64,000 nt of DNA from Schleiferiaceae bacterium (GTDB lineage Bacteria > Bacteroidota > Bacteroidia > Flavobacteriales > Schleiferiaceae). Of this stretch, positions 4,392 to 59,427 are shown in pieces. A program made the translations under genes and the position numbers. The stretch's first letter is position 1. The number at the start of each line of letters is the position of its first letter. The stretch is from the NCBI GenBank assembly GCA_018402665.1, contig JAGYIN010000002.1, positions 1 to 64,000 of the forward strand, given 5' to 3'. The notes under the pieces were generated by a model. It saw nothing but the letters and a program-made list of their open reading frames with translations. It was not told the origin of the DNA and did no database searches.

Positions 4392-6055
4392 TAGTTCAGA
4401 GTTCCTAAAGGCTTTCAATCTGTTCACCGCATAATCTGCTGCACGGAGCCGTCATCGCCATATACGTGAGCGATGGATCTACACACGAAGAAGAGGCTGC
4501 GGCTGCACCGTCGGTGACATAAAGATATCTGGCGCCTCCCAAACTTGGTTCCATTTATTGAGCACTGACCTTCGGGTGCCGTTCCCATGCGGGTACGTTC
4601 CCATTTCGTGGATGCTCATGCCCAGGGCATAATCGGACCTAACCGCTGATACCCAGGAAGCCCAAGCTCAGCATATCGACTGCACCTTGCCTATATCGAC
4701 ACGCATTTCGCCTCATTTTCTCTGAGCTGCGCGTCGAAAGAAAGCACGGAAGCCCCCATTTATCCTTCTTATCCGGGTCCAATTTATTTCCATTATCATA
4801 CGGCAATACCTCACCGAAGCCTGTCATTCCCATGGTCCACGGACCGGTTTTGCTGATGCCTTTTAAAATCGGCCCCAATTCCTAGTTCGCGCACGCTGCG
4901 TCTCCAATCGCCGCGCGAGGCAGAACCCCAGCCAAACCCACGCAAATAGTCGCGCTTGTCGCCATCCCAATTCCGGAAACGAAAACGTGCCAGTCGGGCG
5001 CCCACCAAAGTAGTATTTGTCCTGATCGCCTCCAAGTCCCACTCGCTCCAACTCTGAAGTGGTGGTCCATCAAATTGTGACCCAACTACCGTGAACTAGA
5101 GCCCAAAACTGGCCTTCCCAAACGTCCGTCGCACTGTCTATCAAATCCAAGTCGAATCTAATGCAGAGGCGTTCAAAACACACCGGTGGGTGTATTCATA
5201 GGCCGCGTCTGTCTCGGCATCCAGCACGCTTACGCCTCTTCGCTTCTTACCGTCTTTACTACATCAATCTTCATGATACTGTGCGGACGCAACGCCAAAT
5301 TGCCCACGCATCGCGGCCGGCAGCGTTGAGGCTTTCAGTACTGGGAAGTAGCCACCGTACGACAGCCTGCAACAACCGGTGATTGTTTGGCATTGATACC
5401 CCGTTCGTCCATGGTGCGGTACGGCGATGTTTGAGGTATGGCCAATGATTAATCGGCGCTTTCATCACATGATGAATGCGATCCGTGCCGCCGTTCCACA
5501 CAACTAAATCCATCGCATGCAACACACACTGTCCGGCAGCACATCCAGATTCTCAAAAGTGATCCAGCTCAATCCTGCAAATTTCCCAACGCAAGCGCTC
5601 AAGGCTCCAGATCATCGTACCCGATCGGCCAAGCGCGTCGCAATGCCAGTTCTTTCATTGGCTAAAGTCCTCGCGGTTCCATCAGCTCCATGGCCCCACA
5701 TCAGCGCGAGAGCGCCCTCTTTCGACATGATAGCGCTGGCAGAACGTTAATCGAACTGTTTTTCTCCAGGTACGGACAATCCTGATCGTCCACCCACCAA
5801 TCCGGCCCAATTCATTCAATTGATAACCTCCCAGCACCGGATTCCTATCCTTCTGCGCGTGCTGCCTTTCTCCAGGCGGAAATTCCCAGGGATCTTATCT
5901 TTGTTGGTGTAATCTTTTAATGTGCTCTACGTTTTGCCTGCGCTCCAGCACCAGGACCTTCAGTCCCTTCTGGGTGAGTTCTTTTTGTTCCAGCCTCCGG
6001 AAATCCCGGAGCCAATAATGATCGCATCATAATGCATTTCCTGGTCTTCTGCCAT
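4392..6055 (-). pseudogene. GMC family FAD-dependent sugar dehydrogenase, frameshifted
   Basis: The N terminus is clear: from an ATG at 6055 the frame reads MAEDQEMHYDAIIIGSGISGG, the dinucleotide-binding motif of glucose-methanol-choline oxidoreductases. Shifted frames then give YTNKDKIPWEFP. The C-terminal end gives ALGMSIHEMGT, LNKWNQVWEAPDIF and RAADYAVNRLKAF, the family's substrate-binding and final helix motifs. The length, about 1.66 kb, fits the large subunit of periplasmic sugar dehydrogenases that make 3-keto sugars or sugar lactones and pass electrons to a cytochrome. It sits between the isomerase gene and the subunit 3 gene. Many single-base frame changes interrupt it while the coded motifs stay well conserved, which suggests sequence error rather than old decay. 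Confidence 0.75.
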
Positions 6056-55143: not shown

Positions 55144-55887
55144 TTAAGCCGCCTCTGTCTTAGACTCGATAGCCAAAGAGTAGATTACAAGACCAAATCC
55201 AATTTTGTTGATTGCATCAGCAAGGTTGTAGCACAAGTTCAGTACTTCCTCGTTTGCTTCGATACCTAGGTCCATTCCGAAGAATCCACCTGCTGTACCT
55301 AAGATGTAACCGATAGGGTAGATACCCCAACCGATGATTACGAATTTAGCCAAAGCACTGTTTGCTTTTGCTACTGCACCACCAGCGTTGTTCGCCAATT
55401 TCGCAACGTCTCCTTTCCATACCATCCATACGATGTAGAAGTAAGCAGCACCAGAAATAGCACCCCATACCCAAGAAACAGCGTCATTTGCGTAGAATGC
55501 CTCACCGATGTAACCGGTAACTAACATTGCAACTGAAGCTAGGATCAGTTTGTACAAGATTGACTTTGTACCTCCAGCTTTCTTTGTGATCAAGTAGAAC
55601 TCAACACACATAAGTGGAACGGTTAACGTCCAGTCTACATAACGTAGAACAACTGGACTTCCATTACCGGCAGCGTAGAAATCACGCATGTAGTAGTAGT
55701 GCACTGCTGCAATACCAGTAATAAGCCCACTAACGAGCATTGAAGTTTTCCACTCGTCTGCAACTCTACTTCTTTCGAAGAAGAAGAATACTGAAGCGGC
55801 CAACATCGCCATGTAACCGGCGAAGAATGTGAACGATACGTAATCGTTCGGATCGAATCCCATAGATCCGTCTAAAAATAATGACAT
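55144..55887 (-). CDS. Proton-pumping proteorhodopsin, green type
   Basis: A 247-residue seven-helix microbial rhodopsin. Helix C reads RYVDWTLTVPLMCVEF, giving Asp85, Thr89 and Glu96, the DTE triad (97/101/108 in the reference protein) of outward proton pumps. The tuning position (reference 105) is Met93, predicting green absorption. His63, partner of the proton acceptor, is in AAVHYYYMRD. The retinal Lys228 is in NLADAINKIGFGL. Gly142 in WVWGAISG aligns with reference Phe152, the position that is Gly in carotenoid-antenna-binding xanthorhodopsins. It has its own terminator and is divergent from the retinal-forming fusion gene across 207 bases. It would supply light-driven proton motive force. 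Confidence 0.95.
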   Translation of the reverse strand: MSLFLDGSMGFDPNDYVSFTFFAGYMAMLAASVFFFFERSRVADEWKTSMLVSGLITGIAAVHYYYMRDFYAAGNGSPVVLRYVDWTLTVPLMCVEFYLITKKAGGTKSILYKLILASVAMLVTGYIGEAFYANDAVSWVWGAISGAAYFYIVWMVWKGDVAKLANNAGGAVAKANSALAKFVIIGWGIYPIGYILGTAGGFFGMDLGIEANEEVLNLCYNLADAINKIGFGLVIYSLAIESKTEAA

Positions 55888-56094
55888 GGTGTTAAAAATT
55901 AAAGGTTATAACTACCACTTAACTTACGAAGAATACTTTTGTTCACGACAGACTAAAAATAAGTTAAAACACTCATATTTATAGCCATATTTATCGATTT
56001 CAGCTATTTATACAGCTAATTAGCAGCATGTATAGAACAAAATAGTCATGCAATTGTTATGCTAAATATAAAGGGTCTAATCGACATTTAATCA

Positions 56095-58074
56095 ATGGAG
56101 CGTTACGATATAGGTTTTTTGGGAATGGGTGCCGCAAATGGTTTGCTTTTGCTTGAATTGGAGCGTAGAAATAACTTGCACCAGTTCAAAATACTCATTC
56201 TTGAACCCGACGCGAAACATAAAAATGATAAGACCTATTGTTTTTGGGCGGATTCTAAACATGAAATCCGTACGCAACTCAAAGATGTATTGTTCCACCA
56301 GTGGGATACGCTCGATACAGTAGATGGTCTAGAGGCGTTAGAAGATCAGCATTATTATATGGTTGAAAGTAGCGCACTATATAATAAGGTTAAAACGGTT
56401 GCGCAATCGCACGAAAATATCGTTTGGATTAGAGGTGCTGTTGATGGTTTAAGGACTGAACAAGAAGGCGTTTTAGTTTCAAGCGGAGACTATTCGTGGG
56501 AAGTTCAGCAAGTGTTCGATAGCAGGCCCCCAAACATTAAAGAGCCCATGGGACCGCTTGTCTTGCAAAGTTTTGTGGGATGGCGCGTTGAGCTCAAGGA
56601 AGCGTACTGGACCCCGAATGAAATGACGTTGATGGATTTCAGTATTCCTCAAAACGGTTTTACGCAGTTCATGTACGTGCTTCCAACCGGAACTAAGGAA
56701 GCTTTGGTGGAAATGACGCGCTTCGGCAGTGAACAATTGCCGCATGAATTGGCCAGTAATCATCTTCGAAATTATCTTCTTTCTAGAGGCCTATCTTTTG
56801 ATATTCAACACGAGGAACGTGGTGTTATTCCCATGACGCAATATGCCGAGGTCAAGGATCAGGATGCACGTATTGTTTCTACAGGTGCCCGTGCAGGAAG
56901 GGTTAAAGCCACTACAGGCTATGCTTTTAAGAGCATGTTTGAGCACGCGAGAGAATTGGCAGAAAGCATTGTGCAGGAACGTAAAGAATCGTCGTGGTTG
57001 CGTTTGCCCAAGAGCACTATGGATCGATTCAATTTTTACGATCATCTGCTGCTGCACATCTTGAAGCATAAACCTCACTGGGGTAAAGAAATATTTGAAA
57101 CCTTATTCGCGACTCAGAAGGCCAACAAGGTCTTTCAATTCTTAGATGAAAAATCTTCCTTTAAGTGGGAGTTAAGCATGTTTGCGCGTTTGCCCATCAT
57201 GAAATTTTTATGGGCATTAGCGGCTTCTTTTGTGGCTATAGTTGTGGCTAAACCCGCGCGCTGGGCTCCAGTAGTGTTCACGGTTTTAGCGCTCGTAGCG
57301 GATGCTTTTTTGCCGCTATCCGTAACTTATGGCCTGCAAGCCGTGCTCGTTTTTCTGTTGTTTCTTTATGGCATACCCCATGGCGCATTAGACGGTTACA
57401 GCCACGCTAACCAGGACCGATTACCGAAATTCATTTTGCGCTACTGCTTCATCATGCTCATGGTCATTTTGTTTTGGGCTGCAAGTCCAGTCATAGGATT
57501 ATCCGCCTTCTTAATTTACAGCGCGTGGCATTTCGGGGAAACGGACCTCCGCGAGTGGGGCTTTCCTAGTATTGGTCTTTCGTTTTTATGGGGGACTTTA
57601 CTATTGACATTGATACTTATACCTCATTCGATGGAAGTGAACACAGTGCTTGAAGTCATGGGTATTAGTAAAGTAACATGGTCTACGGAATTCATGGACA
57701 TGGTTTACAGAATGGCGCTGACGCTGGGACTTTTTATGGGCCTTTGGTTTCGCTCGATCCCTTGGCTGGTTGCCGTGGTGACACTCGGTTTGACTGCGAC
57801 GATACCGTTGGCTACTGCATTCGGGATTTACTTTGTCTTGCAGCACAGTCTGTCGGGTTGGAACCACCTAAAGTTGTCGCACAAATGGACGAACACGGAA
57901 ATGTGGATGAAGGCCTTACCGTTTACCATCGGAGCTGTGGTGCTCTTCCTATTGGTGTTTAGATTCGATAAAAACTCCCTGTTGGCGTGGTCGAGCTACT
58001 TTTTAGTATTCCTTAGCGCCATAAGCTTACCACACATTTACTTCATGTCGAAGCTTTACAAGGACCGATTCTAA
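56095..58074 (+). CDS. crtY-blh: Lycopene cyclase-carotenoid dioxygenase fusion (CrtY-Blh)
   Basis: A 659-residue protein in one uninterrupted frame. Residues 1 to about 375 are an FAD-dependent lycopene beta-cyclase: DIGFLGMGAANGLLLLEL at the N terminus, FDSRP at 141-145, LMDFSIPQ near 180, FMYVLP near 193 and GARAGRVKATTGYAF at 264-278. Residues from about 370 to 659 are a polytopic Brp/Blh 15,15'-beta-carotene dioxygenase with its histidine motifs GIPHGALDG (His429), YSAWHFGETD (His479), QHSLSGWNH (His584, His591) and LPHIYF (His647). The junction (FARLPIMKFLWALAASFVAI) keeps the cyclase end and runs straight into a membrane helix. The protein could turn lycopene to beta-carotene and cleave it to retinal, the chromophore of the divergent rhodopsin. 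The stop overlaps the converging phosphoesterase gene. Confidence 0.92.
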   Translation: MERYDIGFLGMGAANGLLLLELERRNNLHQFKILILEPDAKHKNDKTYCFWADSKHEIRTQLKDVLFHQWDTLDTVDGLEALEDQHYYMVESSALYNKVKTVAQSHENIVWIRGAVDGLRTEQEGVLVSSGDYSWEVQQVFDSRPPNIKEPMGPLVLQSFVGWRVELKEAYWTPNEMTLMDFSIPQNGFTQFMYVLPTGTKEALVEMTRFGSEQLPHELASNHLRNYLLSRGLSFDIQHEERGVIPMTQYAEVKDQDARIVSTGARAGRVKATTGYAFKSMFEHARELAESIVQERKESSWLRLPKSTMDRFNFYDHLLLHILKHKPHWGKEIFETLFATQKANKVFQFLDEKSSFKWELSMFARLPIMKFLWALAASFVAIVVAKPARWAPVVFTVLALVADAFLPLSVTYGLQAVLVFLLFLYGIPHGALDGYSHANQDRLPKFILRYCFIMLMVILFWAASPVIGLSAFLIYSAWHFGETDLREWGFPSIGLSFLWGTLLLTLILIPHSMEVNTVLEVMGISKVTWSTEFMDMVYRMALTLGLFMGLWFRSIPWLVAVVTLGLTATIPLATAFGIYFVLQHSLSGWNHLKLSHKWTNTEMWMKALPFTIGAVVLFLLVFRFDKNSLLAWSSYFLVFLSAISLPHIYFMSKLYKDRF

Positions 58075-59297
58075 ACCGCCGCCTTCTTCTTCAAGGTAAT
58101 GTGCGTGATTTCAGGCCACATGCCTACGCGTCCTGGAAAAGCTAAAAATCCAAATCCACGGTTTACGTGTAATATTCTCCCGTCTTGTTCAGGGTAGAGC
58201 CCCGCCCACTTTGGGTATTTGAATTTAACCGGTGACCATTTGATCCATCCAGGGATTTCAATCCCAAACTGCATGCCGTGCGTATGCCCGCTCAGCGTCA
58301 AGTGAATCTTATTGAGGTGTTGCTTGACTTCTGCATCAAAATGCGACGGATCGTGGCTTAGTAGCACAGTGAACGCATCTTCTGGTATTTGCTCTAATGC
58401 AGTGTTTAAATCTCCGTATTGTGGAAACGGTGGCAATCCCCAATTCTCGACGCCTGCAAGGTATAATCGCTCGCCGTTTCTCTCGAAATAGCGGCTGTCG
58501 TTGAGTAGAAGATCCATGCCCATTTCGGTATGGATTTCTTTTAGTCTATCCATGTTGGCGACCTTAGCCTCGGGTGAGGGAAAGCGCCAATAATCGCCAT
58601 AATCGTGGTTCCCCAGGATGGAAAAAATCCCTGATTTAGCCTTTAAGCGCTGGAAAACAGGGATCCATGGTTCTGCTTCACTGGCCGTGTTATTGACCAT
58701 GTCGCCGGTGAATACAATGCAATCGGCCCCCAGCTCTGTAACCATGTCGACGCCGTACTGCACCTTTGCCGTATTGTCGAATGAACCGCTGTGGATATCT
58801 GATATCTGAGCGATCGTAAAGCCGTCGAATGCATCGGGCAGGTCTTCGTATTCCAAGGTATGTGAAATGACGCGATAGCGGTAACGGCCTTTCCAAATCC
58901 CATCAATAATGCCTAAGAATGGGATGGCAGCCAGTCCAAGCGCCAATTTTGAAATGAAGGCTCTGCGCTCAGGCATGACCGTGGGCTGTGTGGTTACGCC
59001 GCGGAAAATATATTGGCCTAACCGGACTACATCTTCAATGAGCAACGGGCCGATCGCGATGAGCTTAGGTACGGCCAGCAGTATAGAAGCGCCCATGAGC
59101 AAGCTGAGGTAGCGGTACTCCACTTTCCCGCTTGTCATCATTGCAGCCAAAGTGATCGAGAATACTACATAAGCAATGGTAATGCCCCAGTACACATAGG
59201 GTGTGGCGCTGCTGCGAAAGACGGTTTTAAACGCTTGGTAGGCGTAAAGGTCGATGGCGAGCATGAACCCAAGGGTAAAGAATATTCTGAAGATCAT
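58071..59297 (-). CDS. Membrane-anchored metallophosphoesterase
   Basis: A 408-residue calcineurin-like phosphoesterase. The N terminus has about four hydrophobic helices (residues 1-120), and the catalytic domain begins near 165. Metal-binding motifs are IAQISDIHSGSFDN, CIVFTGDMVNN, FSILGNHDYGDYWR, VLLSHDPSHFDA and LTLSGHTHGMQFG, the complete set for an active enzyme. The type resembles YkuE/LpxH-like membrane phosphoesterases acting on lipids or nucleotides; the substrate is unknown. A longer frame starts at 59330. I favour 59297 because a membrane helix starts right there. It converges on crtY-blh with a four-base overlap. Confidence 0.88.
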   Translation of the reverse strand: MIFRIFFTLGFMLAIDLYAYQAFKTVFRSSATPYVYWGITIAYVVFSITLAAMMTSGKVEYRYLSLLMGASILLAVPKLIAIGPLLIEDVVRLGQYIFRGVTTQPTVMPERRAFISKLALGLAAIPFLGIIDGIWKGRYRYRVISHTLEYEDLPDAFDGFTIAQISDIHSGSFDNTAKVQYGVDMVTELGADCIVFTGDMVNNTASEAEPWIPVFQRLKAKSGIFSILGNHDYGDYWRFPSPEAKVANMDRLKEIHTEMGMDLLLNDSRYFERNGERLYLAGVENWGLPPFPQYGDLNTALEQIPEDAFTVLLSHDPSHFDAEVKQHLNKIHLTLSGHTHGMQFGIEIPGWIKWSPVKFKYPKWAGLYPEQDGRILHVNRGFGFLAFPGRVGMWPEITHITLKKKAAV

Positions 59298-59427
59298 AAT
59301 ATCTGTGTGGATGCTTAATAACAACGCCATGCGGGTAGGATTGTTTTGCTTGCAAAACTCGGTATTTGCCGCGAAGTAGCTATCTTACTTCCCTTATTTT
59401 TCCGTAGCCACAAGCAAAATCTATTCC

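Follow-up and report, generated by a model that had tools for sequence, protein, structure and literature searches.

Rhodopsin phototrophy requires retinal, and beta-carotene is the branch point at which the supply of retinal competes with that of protective or antenna pigments. The nearest known system that we found in which a lycopene cyclase and a Blh-type dioxygenase share one chain is a protein of Thecamonas trahens. As described in the parts of that paper used here, it has four domains in the order CrtB–CrtI–CrtYc/d–Blh, with Blh at the C terminus, in a species with putative opsins (PMC10016063). For the Blh of the uncultured marine bacterium 66A03, the text available to us gives four essential histidines, His21, 78, 188 and 192 (PMC9227343). 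Our searches of open-licence PMC papers, a literature that contains no preprints and few subscription journals, brought up no description of a CrtY–Blh fusion, and within that scope the remark of the first-pass annotation that it knew of none stands. Such chains are probably present but unremarked in public protein databases.

The window analyzed here (the whole stretch of DNA, 64,000 nucleotides, from a Schleiferiaceae bacterium) carries a gene of this kind beside a rhodopsin gene. Below, we describe the gene, its relatives, its conserved residues and its genomic company, and weigh what the joined enzymes might do.

Results

The fused gene and its surroundings

The crtY–blh fusion gene occupies positions 56095–58074 (+) and encodes 659 residues from ATG to TAA, in a frame whose translation has no internal stop; the assignment is based on the ORF, the domain profiles and orthologues. 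Residues 5–369 (56107–57201, +) match the Pfam family of CrtY-type lycopene cyclases (Lycopene_cycl, PF05834; 8.3e-43) over model positions 1–373 of 380, a near full-length match that passes the curated cut-off with 147.3 bits against 23.4. Residues 421–655 (57355–58059, +) match the Brp/Blh dioxygenase family (BCD, PF15461; 1.1e-23) over model positions 2–267 of 267, with 84.6 bits against a cut-off of 28, and the protein also passes the NCBIfam Brp/Blh model TIGR03753 (110.5 versus 95.25 bits). It falls below the cut-offs of the narrower NCBIfam CrtY models (TIGR01789, 65.1 versus 215.2 bits; TIGR01790, 118.5 versus 209.5), and, judged by these profiles, the cyclase half is a member of the broad Pfam family outside the groups named by the two models. 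The genome (1.95 Mb in 26 contigs, 89% complete) has a single BCD match and a single PF05834 match over cut-off, both within the fusion gene. With one frame, two near-complete Pfam domains and the same frame in relatives, the single intact CrtY and Blh chain claimed in the first-pass annotation is borne out.

The fusion stop shares four bases (58071–58074) with the end of a convergent gene (58071–59330, −). Upstream lies the rhodopsin gene that had been named as a neighbor, a divergent proteorhodopsin gene of 247 residues (55144–55887, −) recognized by profile and motif residues. The two genes are separated by 207 bp (55888–56094), and in the window and 11 relatives this intergenic region shows, by eye, conserved blocks at either end, one by each start codon, with a common AAAGG(G)T core. 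The blocks are a candidate site for a putative shared regulator.

Distribution of the fused frame

Both domains are found in one frame in 24 of the 25 genomes of the genus, our own genome counted. Among the other 24, a full-length fused frame is present in 22, at 47–90% identity; G006, where the gene runs into a contig end, has residues 80–657 in a single frame. G005, where contig ends split the gene across two contigs, is uninformative for the count. A scan of GTDB contigs gave at least 556 relatives, the best 80 of which were kept. Each of these matches spans residue 80 or earlier through residue 629 or later, and all 80 loci contain one frame of more than 560 residues with profile matches to both halves. 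Titles among the kept loci include Schleiferiaceae, Crocinitomicaceae, Chitinophagaceae, Saprospiraceae and Cytophagaceae. The further chains with both domains for which the first-pass annotation had proposed a search are thus numerous.

How often Blh occurs in this form was estimated from three overlapping draws of 395 genomes each, all of which include our own genome. The class draw has a frame with both domains in 33 of its 71 genomes with BCD over cut-off, the order draw in 24 of 95 and the phylum draw in 5 of 58; the remaining Blh-bearing genomes have shorter frames, mostly standalone Blh, a few of them cut by contig ends or a frameshift. Fusions outside the class come from G679, G596 and G583, which all belong to a single genus of another class. 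The CrtY–Blh fusion is a widespread architecture in aquatic Bacteroidota, common there rather than peculiar to one genome, and the class draw makes the idea that CrtY and Blh are normally separate only half right.

These numbers also bear on the possibility that an assembly error or frameshift joined two genes artificially. We regard that explanation as refuted, with essentially no chance of being true: the 22 further full-length frames in the genus and the 80 GTDB loci represent many independent assemblies at 31–90% identity. Nothing was found to support it, and one metagenome-assembled genome (G995; L128:2030-4164 (+)) shows the reverse, in that it appears to have a frameshift inside the cyclase half of a fused gene, with the domains in both pieces still recognizable. 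Its two frames had been considered as a natural split, a reading that was dropped, the first covering cyclase model positions 1–308 of 380 and the second having its BCD match from its own residue 125. Because a short frame in G359 has parts of both domains and begins with the very first base of its stretch, it is taken to be a cut fusion. A 958-residue frame in G605 was rejected as a larger fusion, as Pfam finds BCD alone in it. Viral spread was dropped as well: 40 viral stretches matched a peptide pattern, and none encoded a relative.

Junction, predicted structure and conserved residues

The junction (57202–57354, +; residues 370–420) was placed from the predicted structure and the alignment. 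The first-pass annotation saw no start signal there, and methionine is indeed absent from residues 370–385, but in-frame ATGs occur shortly upstream, at codons 362 and 369, and the sequence alone leaves room for a separate Blh start at one of them. Across 78 aligned fused proteins (alignment A3, window protein included), the distance from F371 to G426 is 46–55 residues. An AlphaFold2 model from the 78-row alignment (pLDDT 86.3, pTM 0.74) has a first domain of mixed alpha/beta structure and a helical second domain. The junction comprises the tail of a helix (368–385), a whole helix (387–405) and the start of a third (407–438), with no disordered linker at residues 370–420 of the model. Because residues 368–385 and 387–405 are modeled as helices, the halves are predicted to be joined by structured segments.

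In the cyclase half, G10, G12, E206, T208, R209, G264 and G275 are unchanged in all 78 proteins, an invariance that includes the E206-x-T208-R209 motif. G10 and G12 are the candidate nucleotide-binding glycines, and E206 is the putative counterpart of the catalytic E196 of Pantoea CrtY. In the Blh half, H429, D433, H479, H511 and H584 are unchanged in 78 of 78 proteins and H647 in 77, the exception being a gap. By our own mapping from motif and spacing, H429, H479 and H584 match three of the essential histidines of the 66A03 enzyme. The fourth has no counterpart: four residues beyond H584, the Blh alignment shows G588.

The absence of this second member of an HxxxH pair is the one feature suggesting that one half of the protein is a structural remnant, for example a Blh domain that no longer cleaves. 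We consider a remnant quite improbable. The other histidines are retained almost without exception, as just described, and the genome has no other BCD match yet encodes a rhodopsin. Moreover, the standalone Bacteroidia Blh proteins aligned also lack the +4 histidine, so its absence is no special trait of the fusion; it is present in only four aligned rows, all outside the class (L084, L086, L087 and L093). Most fused proteins have W at +5 and H at +7 after H584.

Searched by sequence against solved structures, the fusion gave no match at E values up to 1. In a fold search, the best 50 of 1334 matches (E up to 10) are flavoenzymes by title, led by 3oz2, geranylgeranyl reductase-like (4.6e-13), and none of these 50 is a Blh-like protein by name.

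Rhodopsin genes at fused loci

We counted 120 distinct fused genes, 24 of which come from our own genus; for 73 of the 120, a rhodopsin gene lies no more than 486 bp away. In 40 of these cases it is upstream on the same strand, in 25 upstream and divergent, as in the window, and in 8 downstream. At 35 of the 120, no rhodopsin gene was found although 1.1 kb or more of the locus is visible on both sides; the other 12 are uninformative. Ten neighbor proteins scanned at eight of those 35 loci included one polyprenyl synthetase and no rhodopsin. Within the genus, a rhodopsin is present in all but one of the 25 genomes. In G245, a rhodopsin gene is located on either side of the fusion (L067:1767-2495 and 5148-5888 (-)).

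The window rhodopsin is of the DTE type (D85, T89 and E96, with the retinal lysine at K228), has M93 and has a glycine, Gly 142, at the carotenoid-fenestration position; its best solved relative is 9jov/9jou (2.7e-75). All 70 distinct rhodopsins longer than 200 residues at fused loci are likewise DTE and have Met as the color-tuning residue; at the fenestration position they have Gly, where green proteorhodopsin has Phe in the alignment. Two papers (PMC12308411 and PMC13093654) put such a glycine first among the criteria for a carotenoid antenna site. As a mark of fused loci it was dropped, as 39 of 39 other rhodopsins also carry it, as do three from the genus at contig breaks.

Origin of the fusion

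A quick Blh tree with 129 rows gathers all 85 fused rows into a single group (SH-aLRT 99), which also takes in three unfused rows: one cut at a contig edge, one from a frameshifted metagenome-assembled genome and the Blh of the G032 crtY–blh pair. A more careful tree of 62 rows places the fused proteins together with G032 at 100/99. Strict monophyly of fused Blh was given up on account of this unfused member, a constraint of the fused proteins alone having an AU p value of 0.034. The nearest rows outside, at 94/89, are G875, G725, G421 and G425, all from adjacent pairs, and G1076, where Blh is apart from CrtY. The quick CrtY tree, with 79 rows, covers 48 of the 85 fused proteins and 31 unfused ones. 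All fused rows group in it; support is 39 with L109 included and 99 when L109 is left out. One step further out, the smallest well supported group around fused CrtY (support 100) adds one CrtY apart from Blh and six from the 12 adjacent pairs, including G032; of the Blh partners, that of G032 lies among the fused proteins, those of G875, G725, G421 and G425 near them and the rest elsewhere. The nearest sister therefore differs between the two trees, and G032 is in conflict, its Blh falling among the fused proteins and its CrtY just outside them.

All 12 adjacent same-strand crtY–blh pairs have stop-to-stop frames that overlap, and in G032, the sole pair inspected at the level of single bases, the start of blh overlaps the stop of crtY. 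As the nearest unfused CrtY relatives are mostly from such pairs, co-expression probably preceded fusion. We read the trees as an adjacent gene pair that would have fused once or twice and then spread horizontally. For G032, a later split, two fusions and a retained old unfused state all remain, and having an unfused pair with its Blh among the fused suggests that the halves can function apart too. Horizontal spread is indicated by the three fused genomes outside the class and by genus g11 (f1/g11). Three genomes of that genus have fusions that cluster with rows bearing Crocinitomicaceae and Cryomorphaceae titles, whereas other members of it have a distant, far-diverged standalone Blh.

A second lycopene cyclase

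From PF05834 alone, the fusion seemed to be the only lycopene cyclase of its genome. This was wrong. Contig C4, a different contig from that of the fusion, carries within 4.3 kb the genes for a CrtYcd-type cyclase (PF18916, 1.2e-40), for a CrtD that passes its cut-off (NF042421, 4.5e-183) and for a CruF-like protein (PF04240, 9.1e-28) that scores under the cut-offs of the NCBIfam CruF models. CrtB and the 3′ part of CrtI are on contig C16, followed by a NUDIX gene that, by eye, is a putative idi. CrtYcd is found in 22 of the 25 genus genomes. With the PF04116 model, CrtZ was not found in our genome (89% complete); its one candidate was dropped as a Lipid_desat protein. Such a protein (PF10520, 4.5e-36) is encoded on C4 (G000, L219:4571-5116 (-)), a few kb from the CrtYcd–CrtD–CruF cluster, and several genus genomes show weak PF04116 matches of similar length on the CrtYcd-bearing contig.

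We then asked, in a comparison devised after the result for our own genome, how general a second cyclase is. The test covered 80 of the 188 Blh-bearing genomes listed outside the genus (our own genome is counted in the 188): 37 of the 41 fused ones, four below 85% completeness being omitted, and 43 others chosen for spread. Genomes were classed as fused, adjacent or apart from gene coordinates, an assignment in which contig breaks could mask some adjacency. A free second cyclase is present in 33 of the 37 fused genomes, 28 having CrtYcd without a second CrtY, 5 a second CrtY without CrtYcd, and none both. All five second CrtY proteins lie outside the support-100 group of the CrtY tree. No second cyclase of either family was found in four (G1046, G679, G596 and G583), and the last three are the clearest case in which a fusion may be the sole lycopene cyclase. 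Where Blh adjoins a separate CrtY, an extra cyclase is present in 10 of 12 genomes (the exceptions are G032 and G425). Where Blh is apart from CrtY, two cyclases occur in 2 of 31 (G1064 and G240, two CrtYcd each), and neither family was found in G058 and G072. Fused and apart genomes differ with a Fisher p value of 1.6e-12, uncorrected for kinship, and the trend runs the same way in all five families that have both coupled and apart genomes.

Because a free second cyclase is commoner in fused than in apart genomes, the fusion looks like a dedicated lycopene-to-retinal branch. The suggestion of the first-pass annotation that carotenoid flow is biased toward retinal gains indirect support here, in that 33 fused genomes outside the genus, and our own, have a further lycopene cyclase that stands free of the fusion. 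The acyclic end of carotenoids is where CruF and CrtD act. In addition, the CrtYcd of the Bacteroidete Algoriphagus is termed a monocyclase in the part of PMC2889829 cited here. For these two reasons, by analogy, the other carotenoid line may have no need for beta-carotene at all.

Two other explanations need to be considered. The first is that fusion provides co-expression, a fixed 1:1 ratio of the enzymes and membrane tethering of the cyclase, with beta-carotene released and shared rather than channeled. This is a strong rival, and we give it an even chance. Carotenoids dissolve in the membrane, and the nearest unfused CrtY proteins come mostly from adjacent pairs with overlapping frames, both of which fit such an arrangement. 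A second cyclase, however, would be needless in those 33 genomes if the beta-carotene made by the fusion were freely shared; on the other side again, a horizontally moved cassette would yield the same second-cyclase pattern. The second explanation is precisely such a cassette, in which rhodopsin and retinal synthesis spread together and the second cyclase reflects recipients that already made carotenoids. Here, too, the scales seem to us level. The g11 mixture, the fusions outside the class and the rhodopsin genes beside 73 fusions all point toward it, but the presence of CrtYcd in 22, and of the fusion in 24, of the 25 genus genomes indicates that both have long been held there. Spread of a cassette is compatible with a dedicated retinal branch, not opposed to it.

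Discussion

The reading that we prefer, and hold to be probable, is that the fusion makes retinal from lycopene as a dedicated branch, with both activities predicted. In this mechanism, the protein would be a bifunctional, membrane-bound enzyme. Its N-terminal FAD-type CrtY domain would cyclize lycopene at both ends to give beta-carotene, and its C-terminal multi-helix Blh domain would cleave beta-carotene at the 15,15′ position into two retinals, which would serve the rhodopsin encoded beside it. The branch would run apart from the other carotenoid pathway, which would use its own cyclase, CrtYcd, together with CrtD and the CruF-like gene. Both enzyme activities and the reserved role in retinal supply are what we infer from domains, conserved residues and genomic company. 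Counting against a dedicated branch are the 35 fused genes of 120 with no rhodopsin in reach and the four fused genomes of 37 with no second cyclase.

Direct hand-over of beta-carotene between the two domains is the weakest element of the proposal, and we would sooner doubt it than rely on it; the observations that bear on it are the ordered junction of the model and the association with genome content. Similarly tentative is the fuller picture, for aquatic Bacteroidota, of two insulated lines drawing on one lycopene pool, in which retinal would come from a channeling CrtY–Blh and other carotenoids from a separate cyclase, possibly among them an antenna for that same rhodopsin with its fenestration glycine. 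If that picture were true, the fusion would be a natural answer to the conflict at the branch point.

In general, a single-chain lycopene-to-retinal enzyme accompanied by a second cyclase in many families makes the division of flux directly testable. Surveys that score crtY and blh separately, or that assume crtY to be the one cyclase behind every carotenoid, could misinterpret genomes with the fusion. The fusion is also a candidate part for making retinal in lycopene-producing hosts.

Comparison with known systems

Natural multifunctional carotenoid enzymes take several forms, and the fusion resembles each in part. The CrtYB and CrtIBY proteins of fungi and thraustochytrids, as far as the sources used describe them, join a CrtYcd-type cyclase to upstream enzymes, without Blh. 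Among bacteria, the CrtIB of Verrucomicrobiota rhodopsin operons is likewise a fusion of carotenoid enzymes in a rhodopsin cluster, but it joins phytoene synthase and desaturase, with crtY and blh as separate genes in the operons that the cited part of the paper presents (PMC10284914). The Blh of 66A03 belongs to the same dioxygenase family and converts beta-carotene to retinal; unlike the fusion, it is standalone in the account drawn on here, and the fusion matches three of its four essential histidines by motif (PMC9227343). Closer in content are the adjacent crtY–blh pairs of Bacteroidota (G531, G790, G861, G875, G725, G421, G032 and five others), which have the same families in the same order on the same strand and keep a second cyclase in 10 of 12 cases, but which encode two polypeptides. 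The Thecamonas trahens protein, like the fusion, combines a lycopene cyclase with Blh at the C terminus of a single polypeptide. It differs, as far as its published description was available to us, in belonging to a eukaryote and in combining an unrelated CrtYc/d cyclase with CrtB and CrtI, whereas the bacterial protein described here uses an FAD-type CrtY and unites the last two steps only.
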